DNA of 64,000 bases from Emergencia sp. 1XD21-10 (lineage in GTDB: Bacteria; Bacillota; Clostridia; Peptostreptococcales; Anaerovoracaceae): positions 1 to 64,000 of the forward strand of contig NZ_QWEQ01000016.1 in the NCBI RefSeq assembly GCF_009936045.1, written 5' to 3'. This document shows, piece by piece, positions 50,944-64,000 of this stretch. The number at the start of each line of letters is the position of its first letter. Positions within the stretch are counted from its first letter, which is position 1. The translations under genes and the position numbers were made by a program. The notes beneath the pieces are model-generated. The model had not been told where the DNA came from and searched no databases. It saw only the letters and a program-made list of their open reading frames with translations.

Positions 50944-51678
50944 TTATCTGAAATAAGGCAGTTGAGGGGTTGCGTAATAAATATAGACATATTTAATATT
51001 ATAGTAGTCGATTGCACTGACGTTACCTGTGCCGATTTCCTGCAGCAGAATGTAGTTGACGCCGACGCCGATAAGGTAACCGTATCGGTCTTCAACGTTG
51101 CTGGAACCTACCAGCTGCTCAACACGCATATACTTTCCAATCTGTGTTCTGAGAAAACCGTTTAAGTACTGAAGATTTTCATAATCGATTGTCTCCTGAT
51201 AGCCTGGCGGAAGGAGGGGATTATTAGGTACTTGAAACTGCGGGGCTTCAGGAAGAATACTTGGAGGAACACTACTGCTGCTTGGTGTTTGCGTGCTGCC
51301 CGTTGCGGAAGACGAAGTAACTCTTCCAGCATCTGCGTTAGCATTTGTGAAAAGCGCCGGAGGATCCGGCTGACCTGGAATGGTTTCGAAGGGTCCTTCG
51401 GCAGCAGGAATAATGGAAGGTGCCTGCGTTTCTGCACCACTCTGATTTACTGCTTGTGTACCTGGCATTGGCACGGTTGAAGCGACAATCCCAGGAAAGG
51501 TAGGAGAATTTGAAGTGCCGGGCATTTGCTGCGGTGTGTATGGGTGATTGGTGCAATTTGTCATTTGAGGGTAAGTAATAATTGGTGCGGGAACAAAATT
51601 GATATCATGGTTATCTATTGGTTTTGGCTGCAGGGACACGTTACCGCATCCGCTTTTTGCATTACATAATGTTGCCAT
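50944..51678 (-). CDS. gerQ: GerQ-like spore coat protein
   Basis: The 244-residue protein has a long low-complexity Pro/Thr/Ser/Gln-rich N-terminus (~1-165) and a compact C-terminal domain (LQYLNGFLRTQIGKYMRVEQ, YLIGVGVNYILLQE, NIKYVYIYY) like GerQ, a coat protein needed to place the cortex hydrolase CwlJ. GerQ is usually ~180 residues, so the N-terminal part is extended. It lies directly downstream of a CwlJ/SleB-type gene fragment, the cwlJ-gerQ order known in Bacillus. GAGGTAATTTAT precedes the ATG. Confidence 0.78.
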   Translation of the reverse strand: MATLCNAKSGCGNVSLQPKPIDNHDINFVPAPIITYPQMTNCTNHPYTPQQMPGTSNSPTFPGIVASTVPMPGTQAVNQSGAETQAPSIIPAAEGPFETIPGQPDPPALFTNANADAGRVTSSSATGSTQTPSSSSVPPSILPEAPQFQVPNNPLLPPGYQETIDYENLQYLNGFLRTQIGKYMRVEQLVGSSNVEDRYGYLIGVGVNYILLQEIGTGNVSAIDYYNIKYVYIYYATPQLPYFR

Positions 51679-51739: not shown

Positions 51740-52111
51740 TTAAGTATTGGCATAATAGGAAGTTGGAAGATAAAAGCAGTGATCACCGATTCGGTTATGA
51801 ATCACGCCCACATTTGTAGGGAAATAGGTGGGACAGGTTGGGCTGTAAGGGTTGTGAAAGAATAGAGAACCATCCACACCGGGCAGCCTGCCGCCGCCCA
51901 TTGCCCAGTCTACAATATCATAATGCTCTTGTGTCGGGGTCATATTATAAATATTTTGCCTGTTGTAAGTGCCGCCTATAGACTCGCGCAGACATACAAA
52001 CTGCCCCTGCTGTAAAATGATGGCGCGAATGTCGCCGCCATTGCTAACGCGGGCAAACTCACCGTAATCTATTGTAGCGCGATTCATAATCACTGTTGCG
52101 ACAGCGCGCAT
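51740..52111 (-). CDS. cwlJ: CwlJ/SleB-type cortex hydrolase, 3' part, interrupted at its 5' end by the prophage
   Basis: The 123 residues (MRAVATVIMNRA, QGQFVCLRE, SLFFHNPYSPTCP, GDHCFYLPTSYY) cover most of the cell wall hydrolase domain of CwlJ/SleB enzymes, which degrade spore cortex during germination. The missing N-terminus would hold the family's conserved Glu region (AEA.GE). Reading upstream in frame gives only AHIG before a TAA at 52130-52132, and no SD precedes the ATG. The recombinase gene stops 37 bp upstream. The simplest reading is a prophage inserted in the gene near codon ~20, with the 5' part at the far end of the element, outside the window. Confidence 0.8.
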   Translation of the reverse strand: MRAVATVIMNRATIDYGEFARVSNGGDIRAIILQQGQFVCLRESIGGTYNRQNIYNMTPTQEHYDIVDWAMGGGRLPGVDGSLFFHNPYSPTCPTYFPTNVGVIHNRIGDHCFYLPTSYYANT

Positions 52112-52148
52112 ACCTATATGCGCTCTAGTTTACCACCACGGGCATTTT
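52112..52148. other. Candidate prophage attachment junction
   Basis: This 37-bp gap separates the recombinase stop from the cwlJ fragment. The bases nearest the fragment still encode AHIG in frame, as expected of chromosome sequence, while the rest contains a stop and reads as phage DNA. The crossover core is therefore probably near 52112-52130. The partner site lies beyond the window. Confidence 0.5.
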
Positions 52149-53681
52149 TTATAACTTGAGATGTATCTCAAGCTTGAAATCTAGCGGATTAGAGCCTTTT
52201 GGCTTATCGTACACAACGTAGTCGATGAGACCGCATAAAAACTCATTTTTGTGCTGCGGATCCAGATTTTCATAAACGTGGTTGATAAATTCCATTGCGG
52301 AGGTGATTCTCGGCAGCGTGTTTTCAGAATGCAGTTTTTTCTCTTCCAGTATCTTTATTTTTTCCTCTGCTTCGCTGATGAGAGCGTACTCTTTTTCCGT
52401 GGCAGCAGCGATTACTTTTCCACGCTGCAGAAAATCTTCCGAGGTGTAAGTTCCTTCTTCCAGTAAGTCATACTGACGTTGGCGCTTTTCCATCAGCTTT
52501 TTAATTTCTTTCCTGGCGTTTTCGATGACCTGCGAGGTAAGGGCAATCTCTTCTTCCAGTTCAGCTGCCGGGTCAATGTCGCGGTACTTCCACTGCAGCC
52601 CTTCGAGTATGTCTCTGACCTGCGAAATGAGCCGCTCTTCGACGATATCTATGTAAGTGGACATTACGCCTCCACAGCTTTGAGAACAACGCAGGGTAGG
52701 CTTTTTCTTGGTGGAGGAGCGCTGACTCATGGTGCGACCGCAGGCGCTGCACTTGATAAGATAGGAAAGGGGATTGCTCAGGTTCCGAGAATAGATGTGC
52801 GGTACGATGCGCTCTTTGGCAAGGTCCTGCGCCTTCCAGAATGTTTCTTCATCGATGATGCCCTCGTGTTTACCTTCGTAAATATTCCAGTCTTCGATGG
52901 ATTTCAGTGTGCTGCCAACGCGGCGCCCGTCTTTATAGGTGAAATCCCGCTTATTCCATGCGACTTTTCCGATGTAAATAGGGTTGTTGAGAATCCTGCG
53001 AATGGTGGTGCGCTGCCAGTCTGCTCCATTATGGTTTTTTATGCCGTGGTCTTTTAGGTACCGGGCGATACGGGTATCGCCGTAGCCTTTGTTTACGTAG
53101 AGGTCAAACATCAGCTTTATGATTTTGGCTTCCTCTTCCACAATGCAAAGGGTTTTGTTTTCCTTGCGGTACCCGAACGGGGCATTAGTGCCAATATAAT
53201 TGCCGGCGTTGAGACTTGCCTGTTTTCCGCGGGCAAAACGGCGCTTGATGGTGACAAGCTCTTTTCGGGCGAAAAATGCCTTGAAGTCGAACATGTCTTC
53301 GTCTGTCTCATCGGAAAGGTCATAGGTTTTGTCAGGCGTGATGATGCGAACATGTTTCCTCTTGAAGAGGTTCAGGATATAGCCCTGATCCTGCAGGTCG
53401 CCGCGACCAAGTCTGTCGATGTCCATGACGAGAACTGCATCGACAAGTCCTTCTTCGATGTCGGCGAGAAGTTCCAACATCATAGGTCTTACTGCGATGC
53501 TATCGCCGGTCTGCACTTCTTTATAGACTTTGACAACGTTCAGGCTTTTCGCCTTTGCCAGCCTGTTCAGGGTGTCGTGGTGACGGGCAAGAGTCACTTC
53601 GATGGGTTCATCGAGGTGCTGCTCGTCTTTCCTGGACTTGCGCAGGTACATGTATGTGTTCCATAGTTCCATTGGTTTCAT
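52149..53681 (-). CDS. Large serine recombinase (phage integrase/excisionase type)
   Basis: The 510-residue recombinase has a resolvase catalytic domain (nucleophile Ser16 in YLRKSRKDE; VLVMDIDRLGRG), the recombinase domain (RRILNNPIYIGKVAWNKRDF), a zinc ribbon (KCSACGRTM with RCSQSCGG) and a coiled coil (~370-450). Such enzymes integrate and excise phages at short att sites. It abuts the split cwlJ gene, as SpoIVCA-type recombinases abut split sigK genes. AAGGAGGAGTCC precedes the ATG. If excision is sporulation-linked, mother-cell control is expected. Confidence 0.95.
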   Translation of the reverse strand: MKPMELWNTYMYLRKSRKDEQHLDEPIEVTLARHHDTLNRLAKAKSLNVVKVYKEVQTGDSIAVRPMMLELLADIEEGLVDAVLVMDIDRLGRGDLQDQGYILNLFKRKHVRIITPDKTYDLSDETDEDMFDFKAFFARKELVTIKRRFARGKQASLNAGNYIGTNAPFGYRKENKTLCIVEEEAKIIKLMFDLYVNKGYGDTRIARYLKDHGIKNHNGADWQRTTIRRILNNPIYIGKVAWNKRDFTYKDGRRVGSTLKSIEDWNIYEGKHEGIIDEETFWKAQDLAKERIVPHIYSRNLSNPLSYLIKCSACGRTMSQRSSTKKKPTLRCSQSCGGVMSTYIDIVEERLISQVRDILEGLQWKYRDIDPAAELEEEIALTSQVIENARKEIKKLMEKRQRQYDLLEEGTYTSEDFLQRGKVIAAATEKEYALISEAEEKIKILEEKKLHSENTLPRITSAMEFINHVYENLDPQHKNEFLCGLIDYVVYDKPKGSNPLDFKLEIHLKL

Positions 53682-53705
53682 GGTGGACTCCTCCTTGAGG
53701 GCATT

Positions 53706-53870
53706 TTATGAAAAAGGATACAAAAATACCTCTAAAACTTGATTTTTAAGGGCTGCAATGACACAACATGATTGCTTAAGTTGAGTTGCGTTGTGCAGCT
53801 CCGCTTCCATGTCCTCACGGGACTTGCGGAGGTAGATGGAGTATAGGTCGTTAGCGAGGTTGGGGTGCAT
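53706..53870 (-). pseudogene. Remnant of a second serine recombinase (N-terminus only)
   Basis: From ATG 53870, behind GGAGACC, the frame reads a recombinase start (LYSIYLRKSREDMEAEL) for ~26 residues, then loses similarity and stops at 53706 after 54 codons. The YLRKSR active-site segment parallels that of the intact recombinase beside it, so tandem recombinase genes probably existed and this one was truncated by deletion. Confidence 0.65.
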
Positions 53871-53888
53871 GGGTGGTCTCCTAAAGGG

Positions 53889-54752
53889 TTACTTTATGGT
53901 TAGTAATGATTTCCAATGATAGGGGAAATCAAGATGATTTCGGCTGATGTACGGCGTGTATTTTTTTATCAGCTTATCTAATTGTTTTAAAACGTCATTA
54001 TTCCATTTATCTTTTTCAGGATACATCAGTTTCAACATATAAAATTGAGCAAAAAGTCTACGAGTAGGCACGTAGCTTTCACCTTTTGGCATTTTCGGCA
54101 TTGCAGGGAATTTTACGTAATATAATCTTGAGTAATGAGCGCACCTGTTTCTTAAGTCTGTTAAACAACGTAACCAACTGTCCATAGTTTGATAGTTTAC
54201 ACCATAGAGCGACTTAGCTAATGCCGCTTTATCAGGGTTACTCATTCCTCGATAAAAGTGAGAAAGCATTCCGATCGAGAAAAATTCAATGATTACCCAT
54301 AATGGGAATTTGCCATTATATTTTTGTATATGGTGCTGTACAACAAGAGTCTTGCTGTTTTCGCTTATACATGATGTAACGTGCTTAGAGAAAAGGGCGT
54401 GATTGTGTTTTTTGTTGTATACCTTTGGGGACATATAACCATCAGGTCCATATTTATGTACGTAGTAGTATGACACTTGTGTTCTGAGAAAGATTTCAAT
54501 CTGCTCAATGGTAGATAGAATTAACTTTCGAAGTTCTTTGTCAAACTCATAAATTTCTGCGATTTGCGAAAAGGGAATGTTGTAAATACATTTTCCATCA
54601 GGACCTTTATACGGCAAATAATAAGCAGACAGTCTATAATAGTTAATTCTTTTCAACAGATTAAGGCATTGTTCGCGATTATCTATGAGGATATTCTTTT
54701 GTTCGAGTAATTCAATCTGCTCCTCAAAAGTAGTTGCTTCTTTTAGTTTCAT
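53889..54752 (-). CDS. abiF: AbiF/AbiD-family (Abi_2) HEPN abortive infection protein
   Basis: The 287-residue protein belongs to the Abi_2 family (AbiD/AbiF), phage-defence HEPN RNases. It shows the N-terminal marker INYYRLSAYYLPY, DKELRKLILSTIEQIEIFLR, and the HEPN active-site motif R-x4-H (RNRCAH, R201-H206). ATG 54752 follows GGAGAAACT; a longer frame would start inside an upstream structured RNA. A strong promoter drives a leader with a compact hairpin, matching the AbiF ncRNA-toxin arrangement. It lies beside the integrase, a common accessory-gene site. Confidence 0.88.
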   Translation of the reverse strand: MKLKEATTFEEQIELLEQKNILIDNREQCLNLLKRINYYRLSAYYLPYKGPDGKCIYNIPFSQIAEIYEFDKELRKLILSTIEQIEIFLRTQVSYYYVHKYGPDGYMSPKVYNKKHNHALFSKHVTSCISENSKTLVVQHHIQKYNGKFPLWVIIEFFSIGMLSHFYRGMSNPDKAALAKSLYGVNYQTMDSWLRCLTDLRNRCAHYSRLYYVKFPAMPKMPKGESYVPTRRLFAQFYMLKLMYPEKDKWNNDVLKQLDKLIKKYTPYISRNHLDFPYHWKSLLTIK

Positions 54753-54759
54753 AGTTTCT

Positions 54760-54818
54760 CCAAAAAATAAATGTGCTCCCATTTGACACATCATTGAGAG
54801 GTGCGGGAGCTTCTGTTA
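54760..54818 (-). ncRNA. AbiF RNA: AbiF-type structured RNA upstream of abiF
   Basis: From the predicted transcription start (~54818) the RNA holds GCTCCC pairing with GGGAGC around a 24-nt loop that contains further pairable segments (GCACC, GTGT) and an ATGATGTGT stretch, followed by ACATTTATTTTTT, which can terminate. An AbiF RNA motif upstream of abiF genes has been described and recently tied to RNA-controlled AbiF toxins proposed as Cas13 ancestors. The match to that motif is from memory. Confidence 0.7.
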
Positions 54819-54824
54819 GTACAT

Positions 54825-54853
54825 AGTATATGCGAAATCTCCCAAAATGTCAA
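54825..54853 (-). promoter_or_regulatory. Strong sigma-A promoter for the AbiF RNA and abiF
   Basis: On the minus strand TTGACA (plus 54848-54853), a 17-nt spacer and TATACT (plus 54825-54830). Confidence 0.78.
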
Positions 54854-55003
54854 TGGTAAAAAATGTATTTATACAGTTCAGCGTGATGCGCAGCAAAGTG
54901 ATTCACCATTTTGCCAACCTCCGAAAATAGACCCTATCAAAATAAATCTTAATTCCATATACTTATAATCGTGTGCCCGTAATCTAAAAAGAGAGGGCAT
55001 GTT

Positions 55004-55129
55004 ATGAAAAGGCAATATAAAGATTTAAAGCACACCTATTTATTGGCAGTTTATGATAAAGTAGAAGATCTCATTATTTACAACACAGCAAGAGAAGAGG
55101 GGGCTAAATTAATTTTTATTATTTTCTAA
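55004..55129 (+). CDS. Small prophage protein, 41 residues
   Basis: ATG 55004 follows GAGAGGG by 6 nt. The product (MKRQYKDLKHTYLLAVYDK, acidic/basic helix, hydrophobic end IFIIF) is unrecognised. A TATAAT box at 54964-54969 may drive it, without a clear -35. It ends in an inverted repeat shared with the convergent repressor gene. Confidence 0.5.
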   Translation: MKRQYKDLKHTYLLAVYDKVEDLIIYNTAREEGAKLIFIIF

Positions 55130-55164
55130 TTCTTTTGCAGAAATTACATATCTGCAAAGGAATT
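55128..55164. terminator. Inverted repeat between convergent prophage genes
   Basis: AATTCTTTTGCAG (55128-55140) pairs with CTGCAAAGGAATT (55152-55164) with one G-U pair. It lies between the 41-residue gene and the repressor gene and may end both transcripts, although T-runs are weak. Confidence 0.45.
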
Positions 55165-55178
55165 AATTCGAAAACAAG

Positions 55179-55736
55179 CTAAACTGATTCTTTGACGGGC
55201 GCACAATCTTCTAATTGTTCACAGCTTTTGCGTTTTCGCTCTTCCCGTGCTTTTATCACTTCCTGCCGGATTTCTTCATAATCATTATCAATTGAACCAT
55301 GATTTAGTCCCTGTGCATATGCGAGCAGCCTACCTTTGCTATATGCGTCGCAGCTTACAAAACATTCCATGAGTGCGAGTGCGTCCCGCTGAATTTCTTC
55401 GGATTCATCCTGCAGCAAAGCAACGATATCAGAAGTGGTTGAGTAGGCTTCCGGCGATGAAGAGGTGCAAACGTCCATCTTTTCGTAAAATCTTCCCATA
55501 GGAACATTGAATCCCATTAACCAAGTTTCATTGACTCCAAGTGCCATGCCAAGAATAGCGAGTTTGTCTTGATTTGGTTCGACCTTACCAGAAACATATT
55601 GACTCAAATCAGATTTATTCATCTTAACGCCGTATTCTTCGCAGTAAGGTAAAGCTAACGACAAAATGTCAACTTGACGAAGATTACGAGAGTTCATTAT
55701 TTCCTTTAAACGCTCTGCGGTGGTGTATCTTTTCAT
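55179..55736 (-). CDS. CI-like phage repressor (XRE HTH)
   Basis: The 185-residue protein has an N-terminal HTH (AERLKEIMNSRNLRQVDILSL, KMNKSDLSQYVSGKVEPNQ) at ~5-70 and a C-terminal region without a peptidase motif I can see. ATG 55736 is chosen because GGAG lies ~9 nt upstream; longer frames run through the operator region. It is divergent from a Cro-like gene, with GTTCA-type operators in between, the standard lysogeny switch. Confidence 0.85.
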   Translation of the reverse strand: MKRYTTAERLKEIMNSRNLRQVDILSLALPYCEEYGVKMNKSDLSQYVSGKVEPNQDKLAILGMALGVNETWLMGFNVPMGRFYEKMDVCTSSSPEAYSTTSDIVALLQDESEEIQRDALALMECFVSCDAYSKGRLLAYAQGLNHGSIDNDYEEIRQEVIKAREERKRKSCEQLEDCAPVKESV

Positions 55737-55760
55737 ATTTGCATCTCCATTTTTTCTATC

Positions 55761-55789
55761 AATATAACACATAATGAACAAAAGTTCAA
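55761..55789 (-). promoter_or_regulatory. Repressor promoter with overlapping operator
   Basis: Minus-strand TTGAAC and TATATT with a 17-nt spacer (plus 55784-55789 and 55761-55766). The dyad TGAAC-AAAA-GTTCA (55775-55788) overlaps the -35 region. Confidence 0.7.
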
Positions 55790-55828
55790 TAGTCAAAACA
55801 AAAAAGTTAAAAAAATTGAATTGCAGTG

Positions 55829-55881
55829 TTGACAAAGAGGAGCTGTGATGATATATTAAGATAAAGTTCAAAATATTGAAC
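55829..55881 (+). promoter_or_regulatory. Early lytic promoter with operator
   Basis: TTGACA (55829-55834), 17-nt spacer, TATATT (55852-55857). The dyad GTTCAA-AATA-TTGAAC (55866-55881) covers the start region and shares half-sites with the operator at 55775-55788. Confidence 0.75.
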
Positions 55882-55900
55882 CAAGAAAAGAGGTGAGATA

Positions 55901-56125
55901 ATGTCATTCGACTATAGCAAGCTAAGGGGAAAAATCGTTGAAAAGTATGGGACAAATGCAAAATTTGCAAAGGATATGGGGTTATCCGAGCGTTCACTAT
56001 CCCTAAAACTTAATGGAAAAGTTTTTTGGAAGCAGAATGAAATTTGTACGGCGGCTGAGCTTCTGGGTATAAAAAACGAGGACATACAATCGTTTTTTTT
56101 TACAAAGATAGTTCAAAATTTTTAA
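55901..56125 (+). CDS. Cro-like regulator (DUF739)
   Basis: The 74-residue protein is a DUF739/Cro-like phage regulator: KLRGKIVEKYGTNAKFAKDM then GLSERSLSLKLNGKVFWKQ, an HTH with GKVFWK in the third helix. It is the first gene after the early promoter, with AGAGGTGAG ahead of the ATG. Confidence 0.85.
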   Translation: MSFDYSKLRGKIVEKYGTNAKFAKDMGLSERSLSLKLNGKVFWKQNEICTAAELLGIKNEDIQSFFFTKIVQNF

Positions 56126-56155
56126 CTTAGCACTTTGAAGAGGGAGGTGAAAACG

Positions 56156-56326
56156 ATGAAAGACAAGATAAAGCCGGAAGAAGTATATATACTCCCGCCG
56201 GAGAAATTTTACCAATCCGGACGAAAAAGAGATTACCGAGCGGGAGTTTTGTACTACCTCAGTGTGATAGCAAGAAGTGCAATCTTGCTGACAAAGACGT
56301 CAGAATCTAAAGAATTTGAAGAATAA
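56156..56326 (+). CDS. Small prophage protein, 56 residues
   Basis: ATG 56156 has GGGAGG 8 nt upstream; the 7-codon longer frame would start in the SD leader. The product (MKDKIKPEEVYILPPEKFYQ, then a helix SVIARSAILL) is unrecognised. Its last 20 bp overlap the minus-strand gene 56307-56489 tail to tail. Confidence 0.65.
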   Translation: MKDKIKPEEVYILPPEKFYQSGRKRDYRAGVLYYLSVIARSAILLTKTSESKEFEE

Positions 56327-56489
56327 AGGCCGCAACTGATGCGATAGCAGCAATTACAGTACTCACAAACATGACAATGTTTTTAACTCGGCTTTTACGC
56401 TTTTCAGCTTCTAAGTATTCGATTATTTTGGCGGCATCGCTTTTGGTAGCGTTCATGATTGCTTCGTGCAATTCGGGATCCATTTTCAT
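56307..56489 (-). CDS. Small C-tail-anchored membrane protein, 60 residues
   Basis: The product has a charged helical N-terminus (MKMDPELHEAIMNATKSDAA) and a C-terminal TM (VKNIVMFVSTVIAAIASVAA). ATG 56489 is chosen because the promoter TTGCTT-17-TATAAT lies at 56539-56567 and would be inside the longest frame; the SD is weak. It overlaps the 3' end of a plus-strand gene by 20 bp. Confidence 0.6.
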   Translation of the reverse strand: MKMDPELHEAIMNATKSDAAKIIEYLEAEKRKSRVKNIVMFVSTVIAAIASVAAFILQIL

Positions 56490-56538
56490 AATAGTATCAT
56501 TTTCTTTGTGTTCGGTTGCAATAACGACTTGTAAGTAC

Positions 56539-56567
56539 ATTATAAGTTGGAAAATGGGAAAAAGCAA
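56539..56567 (-). promoter_or_regulatory. Sigma-A promoter for the minus-strand membrane protein gene
   Basis: Minus-strand TTGCTT and TATAAT with a 17-nt spacer (plus 56562-56567 and 56539-56544). Confidence 0.65.
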
Positions 56568-56611
56568 TGAAAACTAAACGTAAGAAGTAATTTGAAGAGG
56601 GAGGTGAAGGA

Positions 56612-56782
56612 GTGGATATTGAGAAAGAAATCAGGCGGCTTAAAGAAAGTAATATGCACATAGAAAAGCAGGTACATTTAATTACCAAGACTTTAAGGAC
56701 ATTTGCTTGGTCAGCCCTTGGAAATACGATAACGGTCTCTTTACTGGCAATTAACCTGTTAATAATTGTACACCAATGGTAA
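56612..56782 (+). CDS. Small membrane protein with coiled coil, 56 residues
   Basis: GTG 56612 follows GGGAGGTGAAGGA. The N-terminal ~30 residues are charged and helical (IEKEIRRLKESNMHIEKQ), then one TM (TITVSLLAINLLIIV). It overlaps the minus-strand gene 56751-57113 by 32 bp at the 3' ends. A haemolysin XhlA-like plan is possible but the protein is short. Confidence 0.6.
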   Translation: MDIEKEIRRLKESNMHIEKQVHLITKTLRTFAWSALGNTITVSLLAINLLIIVHQW

Positions 56783-57113
56783 TAGCCCCTCCGACGAAAA
56801 TACCGGTGATAGTAGCGATGAGGGTAGCTATGCCAATTCTATTTGAAAATTTATTGCTTTTTAAATCTTCCTTACGCCAAACTTCGGCTTTTTGTTGATA
56901 CTCAATGTGTTCTTGATGTTGGATATCAAGTCGCTTGTTTGTTTCCTCTAGGGAACGCATCGTATTAGACATTAAGTCGATAAGCACATCCAGCTTTGCC
57001 CCTTCTGGCGTAGTAGGATTGCGAAGATATTCTAATGTTTCATCAGATATTTCAAGGTCATTCTGATGAATGAGAGAATTGAGAAGTTTTTCCTGATCTT
57101 TGATGGATGCCAT
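56751..57113 (-). CDS. C-tail-anchored membrane protein, 120 residues
   Basis: A charged helical region (~1-85) with KLLNSLIHQNDLEIS and EETNKRLDIQHQEHIEYQQK is followed by a C-terminal TM (GIATLIATITGIFVGGA). AAGGAG precedes the ATG and a promoter TTGTTC-17-TATAAT lies at 57141-57169. It is unrecognised. Its 3' end overlaps a plus-strand gene by 32 bp. Confidence 0.68.
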   Translation of the reverse strand: MASIKDQEKLLNSLIHQNDLEISDETLEYLRNPTTPEGAKLDVLIDLMSNTMRSLEETNKRLDIQHQEHIEYQQKAEVWRKEDLKSNKFSNRIGIATLIATITGIFVGGAITIGVQLLTG

Positions 57114-57140
57114 AATAATCTCCTTGGTATTGATAAGGAA

Positions 57141-57169
57141 ATTATATCATAGCAATAAATTGTGAACAA
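57141..57169 (-). promoter_or_regulatory. Sigma-A promoter for the 120-residue protein gene
   Basis: Minus-strand TTGTTC and TATAAT with a 17-nt spacer (plus 57164-57169 and 57141-57146). Confidence 0.7.
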
Positions 57170-57260
57170 GCATAAGAGAGAAAGGCGGACCGGAAAAAGT
57201 TTTTACAAAAACAAAAGACGCAGGGTAAAAAGGAATTTTTAAAGAGGGAGGCGAAAACGT

Positions 57261-57461
57261 GTGAACAGGAACGTGGCAATAAAAATCAAGGCAATGGAAA
57301 GAATTGAAACGCTCTCAAAGTTTAGAAGAGAACTTGCAGAGTCGTATCAGAAAAATATAGATGCCGAAGAAAACGCAATATTGTCTGAGAGTTATTCTAA
57401 GCTTGAGAACGCTGTACAGACTGTATTTGATGCGGAAATCAAATACCTATCGAAGATTTGA
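57261..57461 (+). CDS. Small coiled-coil prophage protein, 66 residues
   Basis: GTG 57261 follows GGGAGGCGAAAACGT. The product is one long charged helix (RIETLSKFRRELAESYQKN, ESYSKLENAVQTVFDAEIKY). Unrecognised. The next gene begins 17 nt after its stop with an equally strong SD. Confidence 0.62.
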   Translation: MNRNVAIKIKAMERIETLSKFRRELAESYQKNIDAEENAILSESYSKLENAVQTVFDAEIKYLSKI

Positions 57462-57478
57462 GGAGGGGGTGAATAACT

Positions 57479-57613
57479 GTGGAAATTGTCATAAAGATTG
57501 ATGCAAAAGAAGCGGCTGACATTGTAAAAGAACTACAAACTCAGCCGGATGTGAATCATATTGTAAATGTTATTCGCTGTCGTTTACAAGAAGCTCTTGA
57601 GCAAGAATCTTAG
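57479..57613 (+). CDS. Small prophage protein, 44 residues
   Basis: GTG 57479 follows AGGAGGGGGTGA. The product begins MEIVIKIDAKEAADIVKELQ, suggesting a small alpha/beta fold. Unrecognised. Its 3' 44 bp overlap the minus-strand gene 57570-57779. Confidence 0.6.
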   Translation: MEIVIKIDAKEAADIVKELQTQPDVNHIVNVIRCRLQEALEQES

Positions 57614-57779
57614 TATATTTTTTAGACAATGAGAGTACTTCAACAGCGATATTGAGATAAACATCTTCCTTTTGTACATTTTTTAGTCTTGTTGCAAGGG
57701 AGTCCATCTCAGATTCAATTAGTGAAGAGAAAGATGCATCAGCTCTTTTACAAGCGTCTTGGAAAAACTCTTGATTCAT
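57570..57779 (-). CDS. Small helical prophage protein, 69 residues
   Basis: ATG 57779 follows AAGGAGG by 7 nt, and the promoter TTGTCC-17-TATAAT lies at 57830-57858. The product is soluble and helical (MNQEFFQDACKRADASFSS, LSLSKKYTKILAQELL). Unrecognised. It is the third minus-strand gene here that overlaps a plus-strand gene tail to tail. Confidence 0.68.
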   Translation of the reverse strand: MNQEFFQDACKRADASFSSLIESEMDSLATRLKNVQKEDVYLNIAVEVLSLSKKYTKILAQELLVNDSE

Positions 57780-57829
57780 AAAATACCTCCTTATTTAACT
57801 ACTCGACCACGGCAATGGTCTGTGTATCC

Positions 57830-57858
57830 ATTATAAAACAAGGCGGAGAATCGGACAA
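57830..57858 (-). promoter_or_regulatory. Sigma-A promoter for the 69-residue protein gene
   Basis: Minus-strand TTGTCC and TATAAT with a 17-nt spacer (plus 57853-57858 and 57830-57835). Confidence 0.7.
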
Positions 57859-57895
57859 GCAAAACGAAAGAGAAATTGAGAAGGGAAAGGAAGAG

Positions 57896-58003
57896 ATGAG
57901 AGTGGTGGATTTTCTAAAGTTGTCGATTTCGTATGAGCCTGAAAGAGTTTTGGCGGCAGAAATATATTTACACACTTTCCGCCGCCATTGGTATATTTGC
58001 TGA
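57896..58003 (+). CDS. Small prophage protein, 35 residues
   Basis: ATG 57896 follows AAAGGAAG closely; the longer in-frame ATG at 57815 has no SD and lies in the opposing promoter region. Product MRVVDFLKLSISYEPERVLA, then HTFRRHWYIC. Unrecognised. A GAATAAG/CTTATTC hairpin follows the stop at ~58001-58022. Confidence 0.42.
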   Translation: MRVVDFLKLSISYEPERVLAAEIYLHTFRRHWYIC

Positions 58004-58225
58004 ATAAGGAGTTACGCTTATTCGTTAGAGATTATATCACAAAATCCAAAGCAATTGCAACATTGTATATGATAAAAGTCGTATTAAACGAGATATGACA
58101 TCAAAGTGGTCTAGTATCACAATCGTAGAGTCAGGATAATGTCTGCGATAAATACACGAGCAAGGTAGTACTCTGAAGCATAGGACAAAGTTCTTTGCTC
58201 ATACGATAAAGAAAGGAGGGAAACC

Positions 58226-58402
58226 ATGGTCAGAACTGTCTCAGACTTAGAAGGATACAAGTATAAAGTCGTTCACGACTCGGGAGATGTTACATATTTT
58301 AACGAGCTAAAGATATCTGATTCACTTAGCGAGATAATGAGCCGGTGCTGGGATAGTCTGTCCGATGAAGTGAAGAGAGAAATTAACAGTAGAAAACAAT
58401 AG
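58226..58402 (+). CDS. Small prophage protein, 58 residues
   Basis: ATG 58226 follows GAAAGGAGGG. Product MVRTVSDLEGYKYKVVHDSG, then DSLSEIMSRCWDSLSDEVKR, soluble. Unrecognised. The next gene starts 13 nt after its stop. Confidence 0.68.
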   Translation: MVRTVSDLEGYKYKVVHDSGDVTYFNELKISDSLSEIMSRCWDSLSDEVKREINSRKQ

Positions 58403-58415
58403 AAAGGAGTACAGT

Positions 58416-58538
58416 ATGAAAAAGTACAAAATCAGGAAGTTTAGTCCCATTTGGTGGACAGGCTGGAGCCTGGCATGGGCAGCCGGCATTGCGATGCTGT
58501 GGATTTGCCTTTGTGGTTGGGCGGCAATCCCGGTTTGA
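58416..58538 (+). CDS. Membrane-anchor peptide, probably the N-terminal part of an interrupted cell-wall hydrolase
   Basis: ATG 58416 follows AAAGGAGT. The 40-residue product is a basic N-terminus plus one TM rich in Trp and Ala (SPIWWTGWSLAWAAGIAMLW) ending at TGA 58536-58538. The frame continues open after the TGA directly into the glucosaminidase-like frame ending at 58955, so this looks like its anchor, separated by a single stop codon. Confidence 0.6.
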   Translation: MKKYKIRKFSPIWWTGWSLAWAAGIAMLWICLCGWAAIPV

Positions 58539-58580
58539 AAGTCAGTCCCGGTAGTAAGAGATTGCTGGCCAGAGCAAGTA

Positions 58581-58955
58581 GTGGAAACGGACAAGCCTGA
58601 ACCAGCAGAAGGAATCTATACGCCATCAGTGCAGGAGATGATAGTGCGAGCTTGCCGGGAGCACGACATCGAACCGGATATTCCGCTTGCAATAGCAAGA
58701 CTGGAAACAGGAAACTTTACCAGTGCAGCCTTTACCGAGTGTAACAATGTCGGCGGTATGAGCGTTGATGAAGTGCCCATTACATATGACAGCTTGGAAG
58801 ATGGCGTTGACGCATTCGTAGGAAATCTGGCCAGGAATTATTTTGGCAAAGGATACGATGACGTAGAGAAAATTAGCAAGAAGTATTGCCCGGTCAATGC
58901 GGAGGCATGGGCGGAAGCAGTGCAGGAACTGATGAGAGAGGAGAACGAGTTATGA
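58581..58955 (+). CDS. Glucosaminidase/lysozyme-like domain protein, in frame after a UGA
   Basis: The 124-codon frame has MIVRACREHDIEPDIPLAIA and LETGNFTSAAFTECNNVGGM, then SLEDGVDAFVGNLARNYFG, like phage glucosaminidase-type muramidases. GTG 58581 lacks an SD, and the same frame runs open back to the TGA at 58536-58538. A membrane-anchored hydrolase split by one stop is the likely history; readthrough or internal initiation is possible. Confidence 0.65.
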   Translation: METDKPEPAEGIYTPSVQEMIVRACREHDIEPDIPLAIARLETGNFTSAAFTECNNVGGMSVDEVPITYDSLEDGVDAFVGNLARNYFGKGYDDVEKISKKYCPVNAEAWAEAVQELMREENEL

Positions 58956-59131
58956 GCTTGCTAGAAAGAATGACGATTAATGAACTAAAAAATGCCATTT
59001 GGATGGATAAAAACGGGATGTGCCCTGTTGGAGGGTTACCTAGAGAATGGTATGAGGATGAACTCGAAAAACGCACAGGAAGTCGAAAAGGATATCACGA
59101 GGAGGAAGAAGCATGTCAGAACAAAAAATAA
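58952..59131 (+). CDS. Small prophage protein, 59 residues
   Basis: ATG 58952 overlaps the previous stop (ATGA) with GAGAGGAGAACGAG upstream. Product MSLLERMTINELKNAIWMDK, GMCPVGGLPREWYEDELEKR, acidic tail. Unrecognised; translationally coupled. Confidence 0.62.
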   Translation: MSLLERMTINELKNAIWMDKNGMCPVGGLPREWYEDELEKRTGSRKGYHEEEEACQNKK

Positions 59132-59478
59132 AGACCGACTGCGAAGCAGCCGATCCTATCAAACAATCTAATTGTACCATACTTCGGCCAGGTAGTAAAG
59201 GAACATTTTCTATAGTACACATTTACCGTGCACCCGATAAATCAGGGATCCTAGCAGCTGTCGAAGAAGAATCCGGAAAATGCTACGTGGGATATTTCAG
59301 TACCGTAAAAAGGAAGTGTCGTAGAGCAGATTTGAGAACAAAAGGCAATGAAAACGTTTCGATTAAGAGGGTCAACCCGGACACCGATGACTGGTGCGAA
59401 GCCCAAGAACGACTGAATGTATACGCTGAGAAACTTAATTTAATAGAACTACCGCTGACTATAGGCGGAGAGATTTAA
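59113..59478 (+). CDS. Hypothetical prophage protein, 121 residues
   Basis: ATG 59113 follows GAGGAGGAAGAAG and overlaps the preceding gene by 19 bp. The product has several Cys, a predicted beta-rich centre (GTFSIVHIYRAP, CYVGYFSTVKRK) and a C-terminal helix (EAQERLNVYAEKLNLIEL). Unrecognised. Confidence 0.68.
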   Translation: MSEQKIKTDCEAADPIKQSNCTILRPGSKGTFSIVHIYRAPDKSGILAAVEEESGKCYVGYFSTVKRKCRRADLRTKGNENVSIKRVNPDTDDWCEAQERLNVYAEKLNLIELPLTIGGEI

Positions 59479-59488
59479 GGAGGAGACT

Positions 59489-59953
59489 ATGAAAGTTATC
59501 ATTGAAATGACAAGAGAAGAAGGAAGACTTGCAGTAAGTAGCGGAGCGCTCCTTGCGCTGTTAAACGAAGAAGAACCAGTGCAGAACGAAAAGATGTGCT
59601 GCAGCTATCCCGATACATTAGCAGCGGTGCCGGAAGTAAAACCGGAGCCTGCTGTAGAGCCAGCAGAAAATGTGCCTGGCAAAGTAGAACCGGCGCAGCA
59701 GCCTGATCCGGCAAGCCCGGTGGCAAAACCTGCAGGGCAGGCCATTGCACCGGCTGCGCCGATTGCAACAAAGGAAAGAACATATAGCCTTGATGAGCTT
59801 GCGACTGCCGCAATGGGGTTGATGCAGCAGGGCATGCAGCCGCAACTGCAGGAACTCTTACAGCAGTTTGGGGTAATCGCCTTACCGGAGCTACCAAAAG
59901 GACAGTACGGGGCCTTTGCTACGGCGCTTAGAGGAATGGGGGCACAGATATGA
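59489..59953 (+). CDS. Hypothetical prophage protein with Pro/Ala-rich linker, 154 residues
   Basis: ATG 59489 follows GGAGGAGACT. A short alpha/beta N-terminus (MKVIIEMTREEGRLAVSSG) is joined by a Pro/Ala/Glu-rich linker (~45-95) to a helical C-terminal domain (SLDELATAAMGLMQQG, LQQFGVIALPELP). This plan recurs in phage genes just ahead of DUF2800. Function unknown; it may be an adaptor to replication or recombination proteins. Confidence 0.72.
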   Translation: MKVIIEMTREEGRLAVSSGALLALLNEEEPVQNEKMCCSYPDTLAAVPEVKPEPAVEPAENVPGKVEPAQQPDPASPVAKPAGQAIAPAAPIATKERTYSLDELATAAMGLMQQGMQPQLQELLQQFGVIALPELPKGQYGAFATALRGMGAQI

Positions 59954-61125
59954 GTCATGCGGAAAGAAGCCATGCAGTTTTAAGTGCATCGAGTTCTCAC
60001 CGATGGATGACCTGTCCTGGAAGCGTGCACCTTGAGCAGCAGTTTCCAGATACCACATCTGAAGCAGCCAGAGAGGGTACGCTGGCACATGAACTGGCAG
60101 AACTCAAACTTCGCAATTATTTTTATACGAAAGAGTGTGGAAAGCGGAAGCTGAACGCGGATATCAAAAAGCTGAAAGAAAATCCGCTTTGGGACGATGA
60201 AATGATGGGATACACCGATGATTACCTGGACTATATAAAACGTCTGGCGTTGAGTTTTGACGCAAAACCCAGCGTCATCATCGAGGACCGGGTGGATTTC
60301 AGCCGGTGGGTGCCGGAAGGGTTTGGCACTGCAGACTGTATCTTAATCTCCGGTGATACTCTTTGCGTCATAGACCTTAAATATGGGAAGGGCGTAAAGG
60401 TTGATGCTGAGAGAAATCCGCAGCTGCAGCTTTATGCGCTTGGCGCCTACGCTGCCTACGGAATGCTGTATCCAATCAAACGCATCCATATGGCCATCGT
60501 ACAGCCAAGGCTTTCTTCAGACGCATCAGAGTGGACGTGTACGACTGAAGGACTGATGGTATTTGCAGATTGCGCAGAGGCGGCTGCAAAGGAAGCTCTG
60601 AAGGAAGACGCACCATTTCATCCGGAGGAAAGTGCCTGCAGATTCTGCAGGGCAAAGACGCAGTGCAGAGCAAGGGCCGAGCATAATGTAAAGCTGGCGT
60701 TCTTCACAGACAAGAAGCCACCGCTGATTACCAATGACGAAGTTGGGGCGTTTTTGAAACAGGGTGAAGATGTGGCGAAGTGGCTGGCCGATCTGAAAGA
60801 CTATGCTCTATCACAGTGCCTTGCAGGAAAAGAGATTCCTGGGTGGAAAGCTGTCGAGGGCAGGGGATCCAGAGACTGGATAGACATGGATACCGCCTTT
60901 GCGGCGCTTACAAAAGGAGGCATTAGCGAAGCGCTGCTTTGGGAGAGAAAGCCTCTCAGCCTTGCGCAGGTGGAAAAGGTCGTGGGCAAGAAAGAATTCA
61001 CTGCTATCGCAGGTGAATATGTCATAAAGAAGCCGGGAAAGCCGGCGCTGGTACCGGAATCAGACAAAAGAGAAGCCATCACAAATATAGTAACAGCCGA
61101 AGAGGCATTTAAGGAGGAAAAATAA
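59950..61125 (+). CDS. DUF2800 phage nuclease (PD-(D/E)XK fold)
   Basis: The 391-residue protein has the DUF2800 start (SASSSHRWMTCPGSVHLE), the PD-(D/E)XK motif GTADCILI, then CVIDLKYGKG with the catalytic D...D-x-K, QLQLYALGA, and a Cys set (CRFCRAKTQC) like the Fe-S cluster of AddB/Cas4-type nucleases. It probably acts as a recombination exonuclease with the DUF2815 protein encoded next. Start overlaps the previous stop (ATGA). Confidence 0.9.
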   Translation: MSHAERSHAVLSASSSHRWMTCPGSVHLEQQFPDTTSEAAREGTLAHELAELKLRNYFYTKECGKRKLNADIKKLKENPLWDDEMMGYTDDYLDYIKRLALSFDAKPSVIIEDRVDFSRWVPEGFGTADCILISGDTLCVIDLKYGKGVKVDAERNPQLQLYALGAYAAYGMLYPIKRIHMAIVQPRLSSDASEWTCTTEGLMVFADCAEAAAKEALKEDAPFHPEESACRFCRAKTQCRARAEHNVKLAFFTDKKPPLITNDEVGAFLKQGEDVAKWLADLKDYALSQCLAGKEIPGWKAVEGRGSRDWIDMDTAFAALTKGGISEALLWERKPLSLAQVEKVVGKKEFTAIAGEYVIKKPGKPALVPESDKREAITNIVTAEEAFKEEK

Positions 61126-61737
61126 ATGGATATGACAAATGTAACAACAGGTAGAGTAAGATTATCATTCGTGCACGTTTTTAAGCCGTACGCTTTTCAG
61201 CCAGGCCAGGAGGAAAAGTACAGTACAACCGTGCTGGTACCAAAAACAGATGTGGATACAAAAGCAAGAATCGATGCAGCTATCGAAGTCGCAAAGCAGA
61301 GAGGTGTTACCGACAAGTGGAATGGTGTAATGCCGCCGATTGTTCCGACTCCTATCTATGATGGAGACGGGGTGAAGCCTTCTGATGGAACTGAGTTCGG
61401 CCCAGAATGTAAAGGGCATTGGGTATTTACAGCAAGAGCCAGCGTGGATCATGCCCCTGAAGTGGTTGATAAGATGGGGAATCCAATCATCAACCAGTCA
61501 GAAATGTATAGCGGCGTCTATGGCAGAGTGAATGTGACTTTCTTTCCATATGTCTACGGCGGCAAGAAAGGCATTGGCTGTAGCTTGGGTCCGGTGCAGA
61601 AACTGGAGGATGGAGAACCTCTTTCCGGAGGGGCGCCGAGTGCAGCGCAGGCGTTTGGCAGTCCGACGCCGGTTACACAGGCGCATCCGCAGATGTCCGG
61701 CGTACAGATTGACCCAATTACCGGAAAAGCAATGTAA
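61126..61737 (+). CDS. DUF2815 phage single-stranded DNA-binding protein
   Basis: The 203-residue protein matches DUF2815, an OB-fold ssDNA-binding family like T7 gp2.5: GRVRLSFVHVFKPYAF, KYSTTVLVPK, YSGVYGRVNVTFFPY. The C-terminal ~45 residues are a flexible Gly/Pro/Ala tail. It starts right after the DUF2800 stop with GGAGGAAAA. Works in phage replication or recombination. Confidence 0.9.
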   Translation: MDMTNVTTGRVRLSFVHVFKPYAFQPGQEEKYSTTVLVPKTDVDTKARIDAAIEVAKQRGVTDKWNGVMPPIVPTPIYDGDGVKPSDGTEFGPECKGHWVFTARASVDHAPEVVDKMGNPIINQSEMYSGVYGRVNVTFFPYVYGGKKGIGCSLGPVQKLEDGEPLSGGAPSAAQAFGSPTPVTQAHPQMSGVQIDPITGKAM

Positions 61738-61779
61738 TTTGTGGGAGCAGAGTGCTCCCGTTTGTAAGGAGATTCGAGG

Positions 61780-63747
61780 ATGGTACATCTTAGTATTGAT
61801 ATTGAGACAAAGAGCAGCGTGGATATCAAAAAGGCAGGAGCTTACAGATATGCTGAGGCGGAGGATTTTGAAATCCTCCTCTTTGCCTATCAGTGGGGCG
61901 AAGAGCCGGTGAGACTGATTGACCTAACGCAAGAGGAAATGCCGAAAAAACTGGTTGATGCCCTGAATGATGACAATGTGGTTAAACACGCGTATAATGC
62001 AGCTTTCGAGTGGTACTGCCTGAACAAGGCGGGATATAAGACGCCGATCGAGCAGTGGCGATGCACAATGATACACGGTCTTTACTGCGGGTATCCCTCC
62101 GGGCTTGAGGCAGCAGGAAATGCAATCGGTCTTCCGCAGGATAAAAAGAAGCTGATGACAGGAAAGGCGCTGATTAAATATTTCTGCACACCTTGTAAGC
62201 CCACAAAGACGAATAGCGGCAGAACCTGGAACTTGCCGCAACATGCGCCGGAGAAATGGGAGCTGTTCAAAGAATACTGCGTGCAGGACGTTGTAACCGA
62301 AAGAGCTATTTTAGACAGGCTATCGTTATTTCCAGTTCCTGAAATGGAAGAGCGTCTTTGGCAAAGGGACGTCCTCATGAACGCTTATGGCGTAAATGCT
62401 GACAGCAAGATGATAGACGGCGCGCTGCAGATTAACGATATTAGTGGAGAAGTACTGCTTCGGGAGGCGGCAAATCTGACCGGGCTTGATAATCCAAATA
62501 GCCCGGCGCAGCTGCTGCCCTGGCTGACAGAAAAACTCGGAAAGGAGATTCCCAACCTGCAGAAAGCAACAGTTGGAGAACTGTTGGCAGAGGAGCTGCC
62601 TGAAGACGTGCGCAGAGTACTCGAGATTCGCCAGCAGCTTGGAAAGACGTCGATTAAAAAGTATGTCACCATGAAAACCGCACAGGGTGAAGACGGACGT
62701 ATCCGTGGACTAATGCAGTTTTATGGAGCTAACAGAACTGGTAGATGGGCAGGGAGACTGGTGCAGATGCAGAATCTCCCGAGAAACTATATTTCCACCC
62801 TTGACGGCGCAAGAAACCTGGTCAAAGCAGAAAACTACGCTGGGGTCAAAATGATTTACGGCAATGTGCCGGATACCTTATCGCAGCTAATCCGAACGGC
62901 GTTTATCCCTTCAGAGGGGTATAAATTTGTTGTGGCGGACTTTTCTGCCATCGAGGCGAGAGTCATCGCCTGGCTTGCAGGAGAGACGTGGGTGAATGAA
63001 GTATTTGCCACGCACGGGAAAATCTATGAAGCGACAGCATCTCAGATGTTCCATGTGCCAATTGAAAAGATATCGAAAGGAAACCCTGAATACAGTCTAC
63101 GGCAGAAGGGAAAAGTCGCAACACTTGCGCTCGGATACCAGGGCGGTACTGCAGCACTTGAAGCAATGGGTGCGCTTTCGATGGGGCTTAGCCAAGAGGA
63201 ACTACCGGATATCGTGAGCAGATGGAGGCAGGCGAACCCGCACATTGTAAAGTTGTGGGCAGACGTTGGAGCTGCAGCTGTATCCGTAGTAAAAACGGCA
63301 CAAACAGAGGTAACTCACGGATTGATTTTATCGATGGAAGGCGATTTAGTTTACGGTCAGACATTTATGACCATACAGCTTCCCAGTGGTAGAAAGCTAT
63401 TCTATCCGCAGCCATCATTGAAAGAAAATCGGTTCGGGCGAGAGGCGGTGCATTACTATGGGCTTGGTCAGAACAAAAAATGGGGAGAGGAATCGACCTA
63501 CGGAGGAAAGCTGACAGAAAATATCGTACAGGCAATCGCAAGAGATTGTTTGGCGGAGACACTGCGCAGAATCGATGAAAAAGGACTGCAGGTTGTTTTT
63601 CATGTGCACGATGAGGTTATCATCGACGCACCGATGGACGTGACGGTAGATGAAATCTGCGGCTTGATGGCACAGTCTATCTCTTGGGCGCCAGGGCTCA
63701 TCTTAAAGGGCGCAGGATTTGAAGGAAGCTATTACATGAAAGATTAG
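61780..63747 (+). CDS. Phage family A DNA polymerase
   Basis: The 655-residue polymerase has a 3'-5' exonuclease domain (SIDIETKSSVD with D7/E9; EYCVQDVVTERA) and a family A palm/fingers: VVADFSAIEARVIAWLAGE (motif A), LRQKGKVATLALGYQGG (motif B), FHVHDEVIIDAP (motif C). It replicates the phage genome. AAGGAGATTCGAGG precedes the ATG. Its place between DUF2815 and a VapE-type primase is standard for Firmicutes prophages. Confidence 0.95.
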   Translation: MVHLSIDIETKSSVDIKKAGAYRYAEAEDFEILLFAYQWGEEPVRLIDLTQEEMPKKLVDALNDDNVVKHAYNAAFEWYCLNKAGYKTPIEQWRCTMIHGLYCGYPSGLEAAGNAIGLPQDKKKLMTGKALIKYFCTPCKPTKTNSGRTWNLPQHAPEKWELFKEYCVQDVVTERAILDRLSLFPVPEMEERLWQRDVLMNAYGVNADSKMIDGALQINDISGEVLLREAANLTGLDNPNSPAQLLPWLTEKLGKEIPNLQKATVGELLAEELPEDVRRVLEIRQQLGKTSIKKYVTMKTAQGEDGRIRGLMQFYGANRTGRWAGRLVQMQNLPRNYISTLDGARNLVKAENYAGVKMIYGNVPDTLSQLIRTAFIPSEGYKFVVADFSAIEARVIAWLAGETWVNEVFATHGKIYEATASQMFHVPIEKISKGNPEYSLRQKGKVATLALGYQGGTAALEAMGALSMGLSQEELPDIVSRWRQANPHIVKLWADVGAAAVSVVKTAQTEVTHGLILSMEGDLVYGQTFMTIQLPSGRKLFYPQPSLKENRFGREAVHYYGLGQNKKWGEESTYGGKLTENIVQAIARDCLAETLRRIDEKGLQVVFHVHDEVIIDAPMDVTVDEICGLMAQSISWAPGLILKGAGFEGSYYMKD

Positions 63748-63756
63748 GAGGCAGGC

Positions 63757-64000
63757 ATGCAAAACGATAAAAAAATACAAATCAGCTTGGGCGCTAGCAG
63801 GAAGACCTCCTACTGGCCTGCAGCGGATATGTATTGGTCAGAATTTATTACCCGCTTAAAAACACCAGTCAGAGGACCGGAAACCTTAGAGGAGTATCTA
63901 AAGTTTGCGAAGTCAAAGCAAGATGAACTAAAGGATGTTGGCGGCTTTGTAGGCGGGATATTTTCTGGAGACAGACGAAAGGCATCGAACCTCATAGGAC
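63757..64000 (+). CDS. VapE-like phage primase/helicase, N-terminal part (cut by window end)
   Basis: ATG 63757 follows AGGAGGCAGGC. The 81 visible codons (QISLGASRKTSYWPAADMYW, LKTPVRGPETLEEYLKFAKS, KQDELKDVGGFVGGIFSGDR, RRKASNLIG) match the start of phage virulence-associated protein E/primase proteins. The rest lies beyond 64000. Confidence 0.8.
   Translation, partial: MQNDKKIQISLGASRKTSYWPAADMYWSEFITRLKTPVRGPETLEEYLKFAKSKQDELKDVGGFVGGIFSGDRRKASNLIG

Follow-up and report, generated by a model that had tools for sequence, protein, structure and literature searches.

The mother cell produces CwlJ, which does its work in the coat when the spore germinates. The window, by which we mean the whole stretch of 64,000 nucleotides analysed here (positions 1-64000 of contig C11 of genome G000, a contig of 90,193 bp in total), carries a cwlJ gene that lacks its start and lies beside the recombinase gene of a prophage. 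The locus raises the question of whether cwlJ can be restored by excision of the prophage, and whether such excision would be part of sporulation.

Table 1. Features of the split cwlJ locus; positions are those of the window unless another contig is named.
Feature	Position	Strand	Basis or remark
Gene directly downstream of cwlJ	50944..51678	(-)	no family match
cwlJ 3' part (codons 25-147 plus stop)	51740..52111	(-)	Pfam Hydrolase_2
Shared core GGTAT	52110..52114	(-)	identical letters at both junctions; centre of attP symmetry
Phage arm of attachment site, with TGGTGGTAA and GCGCATATA	52115..52144	(-)	symmetry with far arm; joined form in L032
Prophage part inside the window	52115..64000	(.)	continues to C11 end (90193), then C12:1-4774
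Large serine integrase, 510 aa	52149..53681	(-)	Resolvase, Recombinase, Zn_ribbon_recom domains; adjoins cwlJ in relatives
Sigma-E-like site GCATAGG, 15 bp, CATACGAT	58178..58207	(+)	-10 box the strong part; two-box site equalled in 15/300 shuffles
Candidate recombination directionality factor (RDF), 58 aa (family A)	58226..58402	(+)	common to G004, G534 and the 3.7-kb G176 element
cwlJ 5' part, codons 1-24 with start codon	G000:C12:4846-4775	(-)	pattern and protein search

Truncated cwlJ beside a serine integrase

The frame of 123 codons left in the window belongs to Hydrolase_2: it matches the Pfam model from position 7, with the domain start missing, and is the sole such match in a search of the whole G000 genome. 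Matches to cwlJ were found in 19 of 61 genomes. In 17 of the 19 the open frame has at least 149 codons, and ahead of the Met that comes first in the window's frame these relatives have an N-terminus resembling MAYDTRELFARLIQCEAGGEGEDG; the frame is shortest, at 129 codons, in the window and in G004. The N-termini of the 17 longer relatives indicate that 24 codons are missing from the window gene. The first-pass annotation had put the loss at about 20 codons and had counted the family's conserved Glu among them; the truncation was borne out, and the alignment-invariant Glu16 does fall within the 24 missing codons. Upstream and in frame, a stop and a short stretch are present as had been described, the stretch reading TRAHIG, not AHIG.

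We take Glu16 to have a catalytic role. In an alignment-based search it pairs with a Glu in SleB (structure 4f55), a weak match (E 0.0066); a single-sequence search for a solved CwlJ structure gave no match. An intact relative scores 30 bits against the NCBIfam model spore_SleB, below the cut-off of 236.5 bits, so the label CwlJ, not SleB, rests on length and context, and by these we assign the window gene and its relatives to CwlJ. The insertion cuts cwlJ between the conserved Glu and the remaining domain. While the prophage is integrated, each half would be non-functional.

A distance of 37 bp separates truncated cwlJ from the end of the recombinase gene, as claimed earlier, and the domains of the product confirm a recombinase. 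The gene that follows cwlJ had been called gerQ, a label that we do not retain: this gene has no match in Pfam or NCBIfam, and a genome search with Spore_GerQ (PF09671) gave no match to it at E ≤ 10, with a B. subtilis control above the cut-off. A gerA germinant-receptor gene lies beside the 5' half of cwlJ (G000:C12:5451-6806); gerA is present in 7/7 genomes searched and adjoins cwlJ in G000, G004, G008 and G176.

The G000 prophage measures about 43 kb. Its genes in the window include DUF2800 and phage ssDNA-binding genes, and beyond the window it carries terminase, portal, tail sheath, baseplate and endolysin genes, which cover head, tail and lysis functions. Just upstream of the integrase, a 54-codon frame (53706-53870, minus strand) resembles, by reading, the start of another serine recombinase; it has no Pfam match and is also found in the viral records L032 and L033. 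An Abi_2 abortive-infection-type gene (53889-54794, minus strand) follows in the prophage, shared with G534 and L033. Near the far prophage end, L024 (G000:C12:3580-4159, plus strand) holds genes for a Phd/YefM-like antitoxin, just below the cut-off, and a ParE toxin.

Far prophage end and attachment sites

If the prophage splits cwlJ, the missing codons should stand at its other end, as the first-pass annotation had predicted. A degenerate pattern for the missing N-terminus matched once in the whole G000 genome, from C12:4846 downward. The fragment was not found on the window's own contig and is located instead on C12, where it has a start codon and codes for MAYNTRELFARLIQCEAGGEGEDG, followed by phage sequence; it differs by one amino-acid change, D4N. 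A core shared by both ends had also been predicted, at 52112-52130; it exists, and is the shorter GGTAT at 52114-52110, with the crossover dinucleotide GG at 52114-52113. The two G000 halves rejoin in frame through GGTAT. The recombinase lies at the element end next to a short shared core, a trait of skin-type elements; across the genomes split at this codon (see below) the cores are 5-8 bp long and contain GG. The implied attP is palindromic around GG, with 22 of 30 arm positions symmetric with the far arm and none of 2000 shuffles as good.

Comparison with prophage-free relatives, which the annotation had proposed, gave the same picture. In the sister species G008 cwlJ is intact and the site is empty: to one side the G008 locus matches C11, running down from 52114, and to the other it matches C12, running up from 4767, the two stretches having 11 bp in common. 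Neither a lack of the 5' fragment nor the same short frame free of prophage was seen; G004, the sole other short-frame genome among the 19 with matches, carries a related integrase, likewise at this junction. The 5' fragment, the core and the in-frame rejoining bear out an insertion in cwlJ that excision could reverse. In silico, excision would rejoin the ends at GG and restore cwlJ exactly.

A scan of viral contigs with the integrase returned three loci. L031 is identical to the window across its 6,942 bp, and L033 is another provirus record with the same cwlJ split. L032, a metagenome contig, carries the joined attP letter for letter as predicted, and the exact 18-bp attP pattern matches only this contig. 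Taken as a whole (L202), the L032 contig matches C11 53861-52104 to one side of attP and C12 4777-1 to the other. It also aligns with the end of C11, so that the ends of C11 and C12 belong together. In the stretches fetched, the L033 record (G535, 44,130 bp) matches C11 57889-73051 at 99.98% and C12 1515-4645 at 99%. No isolated phage with a close integrase was found: the 542 matching records, out of 50,697, all stay under 60% identity. What points to excision is the joined attP in the metagenome contig; restored attB is represented solely by the intact cwlJ that other species carry. The insertion is probably reversible, and we regard this as close to shown.

Recurrence of the split in other genomes

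An integrase search of the order gave matches at E ≤ 1e-90 in 16 of 393 genomes. The four best after the window (G176, 51% identity; G436, 45%; G400, 44%; G375, 44%) adjoin a cwlJ 3' part that starts at the same codon as in the window; the next two, G405 and G434, are not beside a cwlJ 3' part. A scan of named genomes, in which 80 of 127 confirmed loci were kept, added one Tissierellales genome (L079 = G534) and returned G004, G176 and G400 again. The codon-24 split is thus present in seven genomes (G000, G004, G176, G375, G400, G436 and G534). All seven contain the cwlJ 5' half, and in all seven both halves are open and rejoin in frame at GG, so that each shows the pattern of skin-type elements: a sporulation gene interrupted by the element, its two parts retained and able to rejoin in frame. 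In none of the seven genomes, of which G004 is only 73% complete, was an intact CwlJ orthologue seen; G375 has a distant homologue with 29% identity and an internal stop.

The elements range widely in size, from about 3.3 kb (G375) and 3.7 kb (G176) through 23 kb (G436) and the 43 kb of G000 to 53 kb (G400 and G534), that of G004 being spread over two contigs. Terminase and portal genes occur in G400, together with a tape-measure gene, and in G534, together with head genes; the elements with phage head genes (G000, G400 and G534) may be ordinary temperate phages. On reading of the ORFs, no phage structural genes were seen in G375, G176 or G436. Two genes searched in the G176 element encode an endonuclease and a PH-domain protein, and two in the G375 element gave DUF898 and a weak DUF5675 match. 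These smallest elements retain a full-length integrase frame and both cwlJ halves. Ranging, at a single codon, from a complete phage to a remnant of 3.3 kb, these elements could represent stages of domestication.

When G000 is compared with G004, dN and dS are 0.004 and 1.48 for the cwlJ 3' part, and 0.008 and 0.22 for the integrase. The much lower dS of the integrase indicates that it arrived after the species split, at the same codon, and the arrivals in the two genomes therefore appear independent. The low dN of cwlJ may be explained by selection before the insertion, and we do not count it as evidence. A quick tree of 94 rows did not uphold the cwlJ integrases as one clade, requiring 2 changes; a more careful tree, built from 17 selected rows, puts them on one side of a branch with support 77/75, which is not conclusive. 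Extra 5' cwlJ fragments were observed in G400 (C21:103769-103683), 20 kb away from the element-end fragment, and in G427 (C18:233087-233194), 11 kb from an intact cwlJ; they could be relics of earlier insertions or duplications.

Of 349 genomes in the family to which the window belongs, 62 gave a cwlJ match, and three of these (G000, G004 and G176) show the codon-24 split. Five more (G291, G293, G335, G337 and G340; L184-L191, L196, L197) are split at another codon, between ..QPG and QFVC.., where a different serine recombinase stands on the 5' side; the one searched, from G335, contains Resolvase, Recombinase and Zn-ribbon domains. In G291, G335 and G340 the two halves were both seen and can be rejoined in frame; in G293 and G337 the 5' half alone was seen. 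Genes with RepA_N/HTH and DUF6017 domains at the far end suggest that the G291 and G340 elements are ICE- or plasmid-like. Genomes G338, G339 and G348, in which cwlJ breaks near contig ends, were left out of the count. In the part of the 393-genome order sample that lies outside the family, we counted a clear CwlJ orthologue (E ≤ 1e-20) in 23 genomes, of which 3 are split.

Candidate excision factors and the case for sporulation control

We compared ORFs of at least 40 aa across nine element sequences, several of them partial. The integrase is the only ORF family present in all nine. Family A (58-85 aa) occurs in G000, G004, G534 and G176, the very four that make up one integrase branch (support 99/99). 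Family B (41-50 aa) adjoins the far end in G375, G400 and G436, with a second copy in G400, and also lies near related integrases with other targets (L060, L071). These assignments cover the fetched stretches only, where not being seen does not amount to absence. Searches of known families with the small genes gave only weak matches. Because of its small size and its co-occurrence with one integrase branch, family A is a candidate for the excision factor (RDF) of its integrase; SprB, the RDF of SPbeta, is reportedly small.

All four family A genes are preceded by CATAC[AG][AT]T, which we take to be a sigma-E -10 box. Among 434 background ORFs of at least 60 aa from the same loci, only 2 have this motif within 60 bp, both of family A, and 7 have the looser CATAC..T. 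The G000 member is shorter than 60 aa and hence outside this set, and the G004 member probably dropped out through an overlapping ORF. The -35 boxes are weak: the two-box sites of family A are equalled by 15, 6, 53 and 39 of 300 shuffles. The -10 box of G000 lies so near the ribosome site that the leader would be very short. The same scan, of 19 upstream regions with one sigma-E consensus, found no sigma-E-type box before family B genes and no convincing site before integrases except that of G176 (1/300 shuffles); we therefore do not argue for control of the integrase elsewhere.

These observations suggest the following course of events. A temperate phage inserted at the GG of cwlJ codon 24 through its large serine integrase, in what appears to be the only SleB/CwlJ-family hydrolase gene of the genome. 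During sporulation, mother-cell sigma-E would switch on the small family A gene, and its product would make the integrase excise the prophage. This would restore the gene in the mother cell, which produces CwlJ and is itself doomed, and the forespore would keep the prophage, so that germination of lysogen spores would depend on excision. The first-pass annotation had proposed such programmed excision, and the circumstantial evidence goes part of the way: integrase-keeping remnants with both halves, and a sigma-E-type box before the candidate excision factor. We consider it probable, on balance, that the locus holds a skin-type intervening element in a new target gene, cwlJ, excised in the mother cell. 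The candidate factors make sporulation control of excision, which we infer, directly testable.

The prophage could instead be an ordinary temperate phage whose att site lies in cwlJ by chance and which excises only on lytic induction, with no sporulation control; lysogen spores lacking CwlJ would then germinate poorly or by way of another enzyme. Its head, tail and lysis genes fit this account, as does an integrase that has moved between species; the contig with the joined attP may be free phage, and the pull of a conserved attB would suffice for the recurrence. An ordinary phage accounts less well for the 3.3- and 3.7-kb remnants that retain integrase and gene halves, for seven of seven half pairs remaining in frame, and for a box found only before family A among the 434 ORFs, and we regard it as possible but doubtful. 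That the insertion is a dead end, with cwlJ lost in a lineage losing sporulation or germination, seems very unlikely: the D4N change in the G000 5' half would agree with decay, but the halves are open and in frame in 7/7 genomes, gerA is present in each of the seven genomes searched for it, and a joined attP is seen. An assembly artefact, suggested by the contig breaks that put the cwlJ halves on different contigs in G000 and G004, is refuted by independent genomes and has next to no probability, as both halves lie on one contig in five further genomes, including the single-contig genome G436, and L033 has the same junction.

Excision in the mother cell would place cwlJ beside known systems. 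The skin element in sigK of B. subtilis and C. difficile likewise has a large serine recombinase at the element end and cuts a mother-cell sporulation gene in frame. Both cwlJ and spoIVCA, which encodes the skin recombinase, are described as sigma-E genes raised by SpoIIID in B. subtilis (available part of PMC517825). The skin excision factor of C. difficile is controlled by sigma-E and SpoIIID, and the recombinase there is constitutive (available part of PMC5025042), a layout that fits the window, with its sigma-E-type box before the candidate excision factor and none before the integrase. Unlike skin, whose excision in sporulation is established, the element studied here is only predicted to excise then; it targets a germination hydrolase instead of a sigma factor, and has an integrase only about 37% identical to sigK-linked recombinases. 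SPbeta, an active prophage in B. subtilis spsM that is excised in sporulation (available part of PMC4191935), is also a prophage in a sporulation gene, but the target and the phage differ. The elements vfbin (spoVFB), vrin (spoVR), gin (gerE) and yin (yabG) interrupt sporulation genes other than cwlJ, and gin is without phage genes, like the small G176 and G375 elements (available parts of PMC5595907, PMC10747680 and PMC4191935).

In the parts available of PMC5595907, PMC10747680, PMC4191935 and PMC5025042, cwlJ is not named as a target of intervening elements. A literature search on cwlJ with prophage or serine recombinase, with most subscription papers and all preprints outside its coverage, gave nothing relevant, and the gut-prophage literature naming cwlJ, in its available part, concerns a point mutation, not an insertion. 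The cwlJ target, its recurrence and the series from phage to remnant are thus new to us, and the mechanism is of the skin kind. Judging from what these sources contain, the known elements (in sigK, spsM, spoVFB, spoVR, gerE and yabG) act on the building of the spore, and one in cwlJ would control its waking. More tentatively, cwlJ may be a repeated docking site, at which different serine recombinases independently control germination by excision and even complete phages wire their excision factor to sigma-E; there would then be no germinable spores without the cooperation of the phage.

Other gene parts adjoin more distant relatives of the integrase. In 20 of 94 rows (L056-L155) these are parts of sigK; 4 relatives adjoin parts of a Mn-catalase/cotJC-like gene, 9 a protein labelled SPOCS, 8 parts of an ABC-type binding protein (Pfam only below the cut-off) and 3 a peroxiredoxin-tail protein, perhaps of a CotE-like chitinase, and a GH18 gene and a DUF444 gene were also seen. 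Several of these look like further intervening elements.
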